NCBI RefSeq assembly: GCF_025398255.1
Contig: NZ_JAODNW010000010.1
Coordinates: forward strand, 62,001 to 126,000
Reading direction: 5' to 3'
DNA: 64,000 nt
Origin: Chelativorans intermedius
Lineage (GTDB): Bacteria > Pseudomonadota > Alphaproteobacteria > Rhizobiales > Rhizobiaceae
Shown: piece by piece, positions 20,532 to 37,006 of the stretch
Numbering within the stretch: position 1 is the first letter of the stretch
How the letters are laid out: each line of letters starts with the position of its first letter
The notes under the pieces: generated by a model
Seen by the model: only the letters and a program-made list of their open reading frames with translations
Databases searched by the model: none
What the model was told of the DNA's origin: nothing
Position numbers and translations under genes: made by a program

Positions 20532-20847
20532 TTTTCCTGTCCCTCCCGCGGTTGCGTTCGGTTCCGATGGATAGCAGGCGGGATTTAACAAAGCGGTGCA
20601 GGGATAGGCGGCATTGTAACGATCCGCCGGCCGGCGCCCTTGCCGGTGGCATCGCGGCGCGCTAGACCGGTTCATCGTTTCAATGAAACGCTGATCCGGT
20701 CCATCTCTTTGTTTTTGCCGCATTTGTGCGACGCCAGATGATTCCATCTGGCTGCAAAATGCTGTAGAGGCTGTGGGGCCGCGGACGGCGCAGTTCCACC
20801 ATGCATGAAAGCCTGCCGGCCGCAGCCGAAAACGGAGACCGACATCC
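20532..20847. other. 316-base intergenic gap with repeat copy A
   Basis: Divergent gap between the small secreted-protein gene and sua5. Its main content is one copy of the 99-bp dispersed repeat (20665–20763). The remaining flanks (about 130 and 85 bases) must hold two promoters, but I see no convincing -35/-10 pair and no small ORF with a ribosome site. Confidence 0.6.
20665..20763 (-). repeat. Dispersed 99-bp palindromic repeat, copy A
   Basis: One of three copies in the window; the others are at 27801–27899 and 36908–37006 in the opposite orientation. By direct base comparison this copy differs from each of the others at 4 of 99 positions. It has two palindromes: ccagatg-N4-catctgg, and a longer imperfect hairpin whose core is CGTTTC-AAT-GAAACG between GACCGG and CCGGTC arms. 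Size and two-palindrome layout recall rhizobial RIME and Brucella Bru-RS elements; the relationship is inferred, not shown. There are no ORFs or target-site duplications that I can see. Confidence 0.9.
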
Positions 20848-26504: not shown

Positions 26505-27788
26505 ATGAAGGTACTCCTCATCGGTTCGGGCGGGCGCGAGCATGCGCTGGCCTGGAAGATCGCCGCCTCGCCGCTGCTCGGGAAGCTGTATGCCGCGCCG
26601 GGCAATCCCGGCATTGCGCGGCATGCCGAGTGCGTGGCGCTCGACGTGACCGATCATCAGGCGGTGGTTGCCTTCTGCCGCGGTCACGGCATCGACCTCG
26701 TGGTGGTGGGCCCGGAGGCGCCGCTGGTGGCGGGGCTTGCCGACGATCTCGCCGCCGCAGCCATTCCGGTCTTCGGGCCGACGGCGGCGGCGGCAAGGCT
26801 GGAGGGCTCCAAGGGCTTCACCAAGGATCTGTGCCGCCGCTACGCCATCCCCACCGCCGCCTATGCGCGCTTCCGCGATGCCGCCCAGGCCAGAGCCTAT
26901 GTCGAGAGCGTCGGCGTCCCCATCGTGGTGAAGGCCGACGGCCTTGCCGCCGGCAAGGGCGTGACCATCGCCTTCAGCGAGGAAGCGGCGCTCGCCGCCA
27001 TAGACGAATGCTTCTCCGGCGCTTTCGGCGAATCGGGTGCGGAGGTGGTGATCGAGGAATATCTGGAGGGCGAGGAAGCAAGCTTCTTCTGCCTGTGCGA
27101 CGGACGCACCGCGCTGCCCTTCGGCACGGCCCAGGACCACAAGCGCGTGGGCGAAGGCGACACCGGCCCCAACACCGGCGGCATGGGCGCCTATTCGCCG
27201 GCACCGGTGATGGATGCGGCGATGGTGGAGCGCTGCATGCGCGAGATCATCGAGCCGACGCTCAAGGGCATGGCCGAAATGGGGGCGCCTTTCACCGGCG
27301 TGCTCTATGCGGGGTTGATGATCACCGCCGACGGCCCGAGCCTCATCGAATACAATGTGCGCTTCGGCGACCCCGAATGCCAGGTGCTGATGCCGCGGTT
27401 GAAGGACGATCTTCTGGCGCTCATGAAGGGCGCTGTGGACGGGCAGCTTGCCCGCATGTCGGCGCGCTGGCGCGAGGAGGCGGCGCTCACCGTGGTGCTC
27501 GCCGCAAGGGGCTATCCCGCCACCCCGGAGAAGGGCAGCGCGATTGCCGGCGTCGAGGCGGCGGGGGCGCAGGAGGGCGTGGAAATCTTCCACGCCGGGA
27601 CGGCGCTGCGCGAAGGCCGCCTGATCGCCAATGGCGGGCGCGTGCTCAACGTGACGGCGCTCGGCGCCAGCGTGACCGCCGCCCGCGACGCCGCCTATCG
27701 CGCCGTCGACCGCATCGACTGGCCCGAGGGCTTCTGTCGCCGCGACATCGGCTGGCGCGCGATCGGGCGGGAGGCGGCGGGCCGCTAA
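26505..27788 (+). CDS. purD: Phosphoribosylamine–glycine ligase
   Basis: GAR synthetase, the second step of purine synthesis, 427 residues. [18 protein letters not shown] opens the N-terminal domain; [18 protein letters not shown] is the ATP-grasp nucleotide loop; [21 protein letters not shown] and [17 protein letters not shown] are signature blocks. The ATG at 26505 fits the family start; an ATG at 26475 would add ten residues. The ribosome site is weak (AGGG about 11 bases upstream). Repeat copy B begins 12 bases after the stop. Confidence 0.96.
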
Positions 27789-27800
27789 AGTCATAAGAGA

Positions 27801-27899
27801 GGCATTTTGCAGCCAGATGGAATCATCTAGCATCGCACAAATGCGGCAAAAACGAAGAGATGGACCGGATCAGCGTTTCAATGAAACGATGAACCGGTC
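27801..27899 (+). repeat. Dispersed 99-bp palindromic repeat, copy B
   Basis: It differs from copy A at 4 and from copy C at 6 of 99 positions. It occupies nearly all of the gap between purD and the converging zinc-ribbon-like gene, so a role as a bidirectional terminator is possible. One arm of its first palindrome carries a mismatch (catctag in place of catctgg). Confidence 0.9.
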
Positions 27900-27909
27900 G
27901 AGCGGCCGG

Positions 27910-28131
27910 CTACTCGTCCTCGAAGGGGTCCGGTGCCGGGTGGGGGGACAGGGTGCCTTCCGCCCGCCGTCTTTCATGATGCGCAAGCGAGCATTCGATC
28001 GAGCAGAGAATGCCGCGATCGCACCAGTAGGCGGGACCGTTTTCGATGCGGCCCTGGTGATAGGTGAAGCCGGGCATGCCCATGGCCTTCCCGCACTCGA
28101 TGCAACGATGTCTTTCGGGCCGCGCGAGCAT
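27910..28131 (-). CDS. Small Cys-rich (zinc-ribbon-like) protein
   Basis: A 73-residue protein with CIECGK at residues 10–15 and a later CDRGILCSIEC, so four to five cysteines plus two adjacent histidines that could bind one zinc. GGAGG stands 8–12 bases before the ATG at 28131. The C-terminus is Pro/Asp/Glu rich. I do not recognise a named family. It converges on purD across repeat copy B. Confidence 0.68.
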   Translation of the reverse strand: MLARPERHRCIECGKAMGMPGFTYHQGRIENGPAYWCDRGILCSIECSLAHHERRRAEGTLSPHPAPDPFEDE

Positions 28132-35797: not shown

Positions 35798-36907
35798 ATG
35801 CCCTATGATCAGAAAAAAGTCGTCGATGCCCTTCGCGCCTTCGAGCGCGGCGAGATCGTGGTGGTAACGGACGACGACGGGCGCGAGAACGAGGGCGATC
35901 TGATTCTCGCGGCGGTTCATGCGACGCCGGAGAAGATGGCCTTCATCGTGCGCCACACCTCCGGCATCGTCTGCGCGCCCATGCCGCGGGAGGAGGCGCG
36001 CCGGCTCAACCTGGCGCCCATGGTGGCCGAGAACGACGCGCCGCATCACACGGCCTTCACCGTCAGCGTCGATTTCCGGCATGGCACCACCACCGGCATT
36101 TCCGCCGAGGACCGCACGCTGACAGTGCGCAACCTGGCCAATCCCAATGCCGGCAGCGCTGACTTCGTGCGACCGGGTCACATCTTTCCGCTGGTCGCCC
36201 GCGAGGGCGGCGTTCTGATGCGGTCCGGGCACACGGAAGCGGCGGTCGATCTATGCAAGCTTGCCGGCCTGCCGCCCATCGGCGTGATCTGCGAGCTGGT
36301 GAACGATGACGGCACGGTGATGCGCGGGCCGCAGGTGGCCGCCTTTGCCGAGACGCACGGTCTCAAGCAGGTCTCGGTGGCCGATCTCATTGCCTACCGC
36401 CAGCGCCAGGAGCGGCTGGTGGAGCGGGTGGCGAGCTTCGACATCGAAACGCCGGGCGGCCCCGCCCGCGCCCATGCCTACACCCTTCCGTGGGAGGCGA
36501 TGCAGCATGTGGCGGTGGTCTTCGGCGACATCCGCGACGGGGAGGGCGTGCCGGTGCGCCTGCACACCGAGGATGTGATGGCCGATGTTTTCGGAACCGA
36601 GTATCGGCTGCACGAGGTGATGAAGTCCATGGGGGCGATGGGTCGCGGCGTGCTCGTCTATCTGCGCGAGGGCTCCCTGGGTGTGGCCCATCAGCCGCGC
36701 CGCCACCGCGGCGAGGAGGCCGAGAGCCATGCCGAGGCCATGCGGCGCGAGAGCGAATGGCGCGAGGTGGGGCTCGGAGCGCAGATCCTCAAGGATCTCG
36801 GCATCACCTCCATTAGGCTCATGGCCTCCCGCGAGCGCCACTATGTGGGGCTCGAAGGCTTTGGCATCGAGATCGTCGACACCCAGATCATGGGCAGCGG
36901 CGGCTAG
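35798..36907 (+). CDS. ribB: 3,4-dihydroxy-2-butanone 4-phosphate synthase, RibBX type
   Basis: Riboflavin-synthesis enzyme of 369 residues. The N-terminal RibB domain (about 1–205) is intact: DDDGRENEGDLI and RPGHIFPLVAREGGVLMRSGHTEA hold the substrate and magnesium residues. The C-terminal domain (about 210–369) looks like GTP cyclohydrolase II but lacks the zinc cysteines: where RibA has a CxxGD...RCDCG segment this protein reads LHTEDVMADVFG with no Cys. It should therefore make only the DHBP, with GTP cyclohydrolase II supplied elsewhere, as described for RibBX proteins. No FMN riboswitch is seen upstream. Confidence 0.92.
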   Translation: MPYDQKKVVDALRAFERGEIVVVTDDDGRENEGDLILAAVHATPEKMAFIVRHTSGIVCAPMPREEARRLNLAPMVAENDAPHHTAFTVSVDFRHGTTTGISAEDRTLTVRNLANPNAGSADFVRPGHIFPLVAREGGVLMRSGHTEAAVDLCKLAGLPPIGVICELVNDDGTVMRGPQVAAFAETHGLKQVSVADLIAYRQRQERLVERVASFDIETPGGPARAHAYTLPWEAMQHVAVVFGDIRDGEGVPVRLHTEDVMADVFGTEYRLHEVMKSMGAMGRGVLVYLREGSLGVAHQPRRHRGEEAESHAEAMRRESEWREVGLGAQILKDLGITSIRLMASRERHYVGLEGFGIEIVDTQIMGSGG

Positions 36908-37006
36908 GGCATTTTGCAGCCAGATGGAATCATCTGGCGTCGCACAAATACGGCAAAAACAAAGAGATGGACCGGATCAGCGCTTCAATGAAACGATGGA
37001 CCGGTC
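36908..37006 (+). repeat. Dispersed 99-bp palindromic repeat, copy C
   Basis: It begins at the base after the ribB stop codon and ends 30 bases before the stop of the converging diguanylate cyclase gene. Its first palindrome is perfect (ccagatg 36920–36926, catctgg 36931–36937); the second spans about 36970–37006 with 13 of 17 arm bases pairing. It differs from copy A at 4 positions and from copy B at 6. Confidence 0.9.

Follow-up and report, generated by a model that had tools for sequence, protein, structure and literature searches.

Small palindromic repeats of the kind treated here have, according to the parts of the literature drawn on, been described in alphaproteobacteria since the 1990s. 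They include RIME, the Rhizobium-specific intergenic mosaic elements (Osteras 1995), Bru-RS1 and Bru-RS2, which are palindromic repeats of 103 and 106 bp in Brucella described as possible hot spots for an insertion sequence that targets YTAR (PMC10800456, PMC2266754), and CIR, the CcrM-associated intergenic repeats of Chen and Shapiro (2003), which we cite through a 2007 review (PMC2229807). The passages of that review on CIR describe elements of about 110 bp from alphaproteobacteria that lie outside genes, consist of two arms and a linker, carry GANTC in a terminal loop and have TA termini; no terminal inverted repeat (TIR) is listed for them, their target duplication is given as '?', and the mechanism of their mobility is left open. 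They also carry an unpublished remark that CIR have several stops in all six frames (PMC2229807). RUP of Streptococcus pneumoniae appears in the same passages as an intergenic element of 107 bp with a TA-containing target, ends like those of IS630-Spn1 and a proposed mobilisation in trans; it is listed with a 9-bp TIR, and repeat elements other than CIR are said to fold end-to-end (PMC2229807). The kind of element that we describe below is already known, and what we report on its YTAR target, on a candidate IS630 partner and on its landing at stop codons addresses the question of CIR mobility from the 2007 review.

The window, by which we mean the whole stretch of 64,000 nucleotides of Chelativorans intermedius DNA that was analysed, had been read before from its sequence alone. 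This sequence-only reading had reported three near-identical intergenic elements differing at 4–6 of 99 bases, and all three are where it had placed them, with pairwise differences of 5, 5 and 6 of 99 bases. A probe made of the repeat's first 27 bases occurs three times in the window with at most 3 mismatches (mean 0 and maximum 0 in 100 shuffles), and as single-stranded DNA all three copies form far more stable folds than shuffled sequences (z -5.9 to -8.6). The length of 99 bp is not borne out, since the unit is about 107 nt and runs from a YTA to the left of the previously noted start to a TAR to the right of the previously noted end. The features in the window are as follows.

20661..20767, minus strand: copy 1, the full 107-nt unit, of the subfamily CTACAGC...TTTCATTGAAAC...GGTCTAG
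27797..27903, plus strand: copy 2, a 107-nt unit (model match) with loop TTTCAATGAAAC
27785..27800, plus strand: extended left end of copy 2, CTAAAGTCATAAGAGA, which begins at the purD stop codon
36904..37010, plus strand: copy 3, a 107-nt unit; the gene that ends at 36907 has its TAG stop within the left CTAG
36909..36951, plus strand: left hairpin module of copy 3, with the apical loop GGAATC (a GANTC site)
36970..37006, plus strand: right hairpin of copy 3 (GACCGG...CCGGTC), an imperfect palindrome, from sequence and folding

The genes that flank copy 1 are divergent according to our own gene caller, and the gene ending at 36907 is ribB-like by our own reading. Copy 2 has CGAG at its right end where the other copies carry CTAG; at its left, similarity to another copy reaches back to the purD stop at 27785, and a near-identical counterpart of 27785..27800 precedes the copy at G000:C2:130299 (G000 is the genome from which the window was taken, hereafter the own genome). 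The stretch 27905-28110 of the window, 3' of purD, is 74-81% conserved in the related genomes G007, G001 and G003 and is left empty by the gene caller; if it is a minus-strand gene, then copy 2 also sits between convergent genes. The earlier statement that no ORF spans the elements stands for codon-scored genes at the three copies and fails for mechanical ORFs, which run through them. Neither a search of Rfam at gathering thresholds nor a tRNA search gave a match in the window.

BLAST of the own genome (4,184,569 bases in 101 contigs) gave 40 long matches of 91-100% identity, these being the best 40 of 74 candidates, together with short matches in which the palindrome is read backwards. Such high identity fits the recent spread that had been suggested. 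A covariance model built from 30 copies gave at least 118 matches at E<=0.01 among the best 150 candidates, many of them again the palindrome read backwards, and 73 copies at E<=1e-7 in the 4.18 Mb, all of which were extracted. The tens of copies with sharp ends that had been expected of a mobile repeat are therefore there, most of the 73 being sharply bounded by YTA and TAR: the left triplet is TAN in 51/73 copies and the right end is CTAR in 56/73. The unit of about 107 nt between these ends consists of a left hairpin, an A-rich linker and a right hairpin. The right hairpin is missing in 11/73 copies (10 found by script and C16:182279 by eye), and these copies are mostly 76-78 nt long, the length expected after deletion between repeats of GATGRACCGG; copy C18:75515 has a different right palindrome. 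There are two subfamilies, one with left end CTACAGC and loop ATT and the other with left end CTAGGGC or similar and loop AAT. We considered that this flip of the right-hairpin loop was tied to the side on which the stop codon lies and rejected it; since the flip goes with the left-end bases, that is, with the two subfamilies, no inversion mechanism is claimed.

Relatives of the element with exchangeable modules occur in several Hyphomicrobiales genera. The model was reached at E<=1e-7 in 10 of 16 genomes of the genus, the own genome included, and 40 places that were inspected in the other genus genomes have the same plan with exchangeable parts: the left hairpin is of type A (GCATTTTGCAG...) or type B (GCAATTCCAGG...), the linker is AAAACAAA, and there are several different right palindromes, most of which end in GCTCTAR or GGTCTAR. 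Named relatives were found in 19 plasmid records (10 Sinorhizobium, 5 Rhizobium, 3 Nitratireductor and 1 Shinella), a degenerate pattern for the left module matched 73 stretches in records of Sinorhizobium/Ensifer, Mesorhizobium, Pseudaminobacter and Aliihoeflea, and under strict filters the left module was found in 13 of 199 genomes of the order, the own genome included. Left-hairpin modules in tandem, spaced by about 51-57 nt, were seen at G036:C7:91411-91615, G036:C5:33120-33272, L232:2784-2885 and G048:C2:1106290-1106405, which indicates that the left module can multiply alone.

Among the published names that come with a readable description, CIR fits best. Like CIR, the element has two hairpins and an A-rich linker in 107 nt, is overlapped by a called gene in 1/73 copies, and has a terminal-loop GANTC (65/73) and TA termini; this is a likeness by description. 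Unlike CIR as reviewed, with no TIR and a '?' for the duplication, it has partly similar ends and two sites in relatives that fit a TA duplication. Contrary to the unpublished remark, which we do not treat as defining, its majority sequence does not have multiple stops in all six frames: there are none in one frame, one in each of three, two in one and three in one. The likeness to RIME and Bru-RS that had been proposed earlier holds for size, two-palindrome layout and host group, as a resemblance by description. Homologues of the element in Sinorhizobium and Rhizobium replicons, NGR234 included, agree with RIME, which is an intergenic mosaic by its name and was compared by name only. Bru-RS, compared by description, is reported as a possible insertion hot spot, and in G011 an IS630 copy abuts the terminal TA of an element; the insertion sequence in the case of Bru-RS is IS711. 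RUP with IS630-Spn1 is the nearest precedent that we met, although its host is unrelated and our element has two separate hairpins and the GANTC loop.

Filled and empty sites were compared in related genomes. In G007 conservation resumes 5 nt after the end of purD, so there is no element there and the purD site of the window is empty in this relative. G003 has three copies of the type-B sister element that are absent from both G001 and G007, to which it is, over the compared stretches, about 95% and about 88-93% identical, respectively. Site 2 reads GGCCC-TA-AGCC when empty (G001) and GGCCC-TA-(element)-TA-AGCC when filled (G003). The two sides there share as many as six bases (GCCCTA), some of them perhaps contributed by the element itself; the site fits a TA duplication and would also allow a longer one. 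Site 3 is a nested composite of several elements whose outer ends fit TA in CTAG, TA alone being common, and at site 1 the empty place is TCAG and no duplication is visible. Of the target duplications that had been sought, then, those at sites 2 and 3 fit TA and that at site 1 is lacking, all for sister-type elements; for the window's own copies a TA duplication is probable by extension. Taken with the 73 copies and their sharp ends, these filled and empty sites support the earlier view of a non-autonomous palindromic family spread as a mobile repeat. YTAR is rare, with 46 sites in 117,003 nt when elements are left aside; 8 of these lie in genes, 9 coincide with stops and 29 are elsewhere. With the nine elements of these stretches included, 6/15 stop sites were filled as against 3/32 other noncoding sites (p=0.02).

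The gene neighbourhood of the copies was determined with our own simple codon-usage gene caller. It placed 51 of the 73 copies between convergent genes; 18 lay between tandem genes, 3 had divergent neighbours and 1 was at a contig end. Of the remaining gaps in these loci, counted from 20 nt upwards, 6/87 were convergent (p 1e-17), as were 22/116 gaps, irrespective of size, in 117 kb (p 3e-12). The stop codon of a neighbouring gene lies within the terminal bases in 45/73 copies. There are 34 right-side stops, all TAG, and 14 left-side stops (10 TAG, 3 TAA and 1 TGA), with both sides occupied in 3 copies. A TAC start would destroy a left stop, and in accord with this the copies beginning with TAC have left stops in 0/33 and right stops in 21/33, whereas those beginning with TAR have left stops in 13/18 and right stops in 3/18; the remaining 22 copies have altered left ends. 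This pattern is predicted by insertion of TA into stop codons if just those insertions that rebuild the stop survive.

The pairing of the left hairpin was examined in 43 left modules, namely, 2 from the window, 5 from the genus, 7 from plasmids and 29 chosen manually among 57 distinct pattern hits. Pairing holds in 97.7% of cells of this set, changes on both sides affect five inner-stem pairs (4 of 500 shuffles reach five), and 52 cells have two-sided changes as against 21.8 in shuffles, where shuffling leaves kinship in and template switching within palindromes can mimic covariation. When the stem was slid, 24-53% of cells paired with at most 3 two-sided cells; the +2 slide comes close to the real stem, with 11 as against 12 pair types and a covariation score of 0.131 as against 0.187. 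Across 74 matches to the pattern, Watson-Crick pairing holds at the four free pairs in 273/296 cells, with 177 expected for independent columns. The outer stem and the GGAATC loop were set by the pattern, a caveat to both sets. GANTC is present in 65 of the 73 own copies (0.15 expected per 107 nt), 61 of the occurrences being GGAATCA in the left loop, counts that are not independent since the own copies share recent descent. It is also present in 35/39 genus copies, and 9/11 type-B copies carry GATTC in the right hairpin instead of the left loop.

Nine of the 16 genus genomes have matches to IS630-family transposases (PF13358), the own genome three. Of 15 IS630 loci that were fetched, the ends could be read for L180/L189, L181, L184 and L186 by an inverted-repeat search requiring a flanking TA and for L182/L190 by comparison of copies; eight loci were unreadable. 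Eight of the ten distinct ends begin with GAGC and the remaining two with GAGT and GTGC. The element ends were compared with these in combinations chosen after the fact. The right end of the element, GACCGGTTCATC, agrees with the best of eight IS630 ends in 9/12 positions, which 13 of 1,359 unmasked background 12-mers also reach, and with the right end of the IS630 of G006, GAGCGGTTCATT, in 10/12, which is reached by 1 of 1,345 12-mers that follow TA in the masked window. Against the same background of 1,345, the right end of a Rhizobium relative agrees with IS630 in 11/12 positions (0 background 12-mers), those of the type B element of G001 and of the G004 element in 9/12 (12 each) and the Mesorhizobium-type right end in 8/12 (48). 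The left end of the own element agrees with the eight IS630 ends in only 5-6/12 positions. The readable IS630 of the own genome has GAGC in common with the element and a right-end agreement of 5/12. The IS630-type transposon at G000:C44 (L184) has ends that read TA followed by GAGCACGTCCG, and the match in it lies within an open frame of 269 aa; a second PF13358 match near L184 has one stop inside. The closer IS630 relative in the own genome is a remnant, followed by GCTCTAA, at the start of contig C46, and no intact IS630 with the best-matching ends was found in that genome. Copy number bears no relation to the number of IS630 matches, G011 having 22 of these and 3 model hits as against 3 and 73 in the own genome. 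We infer mobilisation in trans from these partly matching ends, and the candidate partner would be an IS630 transposase of the GAGCGGTTCA-ended group. No paper linking IS630 with such repeats is apparent among the titles and abstract openings listed, which is a weak negative.

The most likely explanation, to which we assign a probability of about 0.7, is that this is a MITE-like non-autonomous element of the CIR/RIME/Bru-RS kind which inserts at YTAR with duplication of TA, is mobilised in trans by an IS630 transposase and is tolerated where it restores a stop codon. The element of about 107 nt would transpose as DNA into YTAR sites and duplicate the TA, and an IS630-family (Tc1/mariner-like) transposase would recognise its terminal TA-GASC... 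in trans. The hairpins and the A-rich linker would be conserved cargo or would aid the DNA reaction; the compensatory changes in the left stem are unexpected for passive cargo and count against hairpins that are mere cargo. YTAR is scarce in the own genome, most sites there being noncoding or located at a stop codon, and copies would persist mostly at the 3' ends of genes because the first or last bases of the element restore the stop, so that the hairpins could become the 3' end of the transcript. A role in termination or at mRNA 3' ends may follow from this position. The value of the proposal lies in its being concrete and testable: TA insertion in YTAR, IS630-like ends and survival at stops by rebuilding the stop. 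It would also account for the crowding of such repeats between convergent genes, where they may form gene ends.

The element could instead be a spreadable 3'-end module, a bidirectional terminator or an mRNA 3' hairpin, that is kept between convergent genes mainly for its function; a gene-end role of the element is a hypothesis. The convergent excess (51/73 copies against 6/87 and 22/116 gaps), the filling of YTAR at stops (6/15 against 3/32, p=0.02) and the five left-stem pairs changed on both sides would all suit such a module; behind ribB several relatives have, by eye, GC-rich hairpins at the place of the element, and in four orthologous type-B comparisons the element is identical at 104-106 of 107 positions while its 100-nt flanks are 89-97% identical. 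A fifth orthologous pair, of type A, runs the other way with 2/107 differences in the element and 1/198 in the 100-nt flanks, a terminator scan of the region marked none of the three copies and did not exceed shuffles in its number of sites, and much of this distribution is also expected from scarce targets and the loss of harmful insertions. A promoter scan likewise gave no support at the three copies. We regard a module kept mainly for function as possible, with the odds against it. It is improbable that the element is a methylation-gated mobile 3'-end module in which the apical-loop GANTC ties hairpin extrusion or transposase access to CcrM methylation, so that movement would occur only behind the replication fork and each landing at a YTAR stop, by rebuilding the stop, would make a new gene end.

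The remaining alternatives concern the mover. IS711 belongs to the IS5 family. A partner of this family would agree with the YTAR target, the TA duplication and the preference for Bru-RS that are reported for IS711 (PMC2266754), and a single PF13340 match, in an open frame of 286 aa, is present in the own genome. The candidate ends of 7 of 15 PF13340 loci, however, begin with CCGCTC, AGGCCTG, GGGTCAGG/GGCTCAGG, CGACAAG or GGCCCTG and not with GASC (the own copy, L199, lies outside those 7), and we think it unlikely that an IS5-family transposase is the partner. Old vertical repeats homogenised by gene conversion without recent transposition would account for some copies that are orthologous between species, but not for the filled and empty differences between related genomes, for the empty purD site of G007, nor for similarity that stops near YTA and TAR with unrelated flanks, and we give this very little credence. 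Least probable, and to our minds barely credible, is a REP/REPIN-type element moved by a RAYT (Y1 HUH) transposase. The element is short, palindromic, mostly intergenic and present in many copies, as REPs are, and 33/73 copies have TAC at the left, mostly as CTAC, which is GTAG on the other strand; its size of about 107 nt and its two-module layout differ from REPs as described. RAYT as the mover is disfavoured since PF01797 (Y1_Tnp) had no match in the own genome and a single partial one across the 16 genus genomes, whereas 5/14 control genomes match.

Other repeats were seen beside those of this family. A second palindromic family of about 121 nt occurs at L159:4198-4318 (G003) and in at least 18 places in G001; its ends are GTGGTSYGATCC-like beside TA, and at the L159 position neither G001 nor G007 has it. 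Stretches resembling this second family abut first-family copies in the own genome at G000:C2:26066 and G000:C10:33077. At L159:13904-14101 (G003) about 200 nt with an inverted repeat by eye break the match between G003 and G001 and may be another small mobile element.
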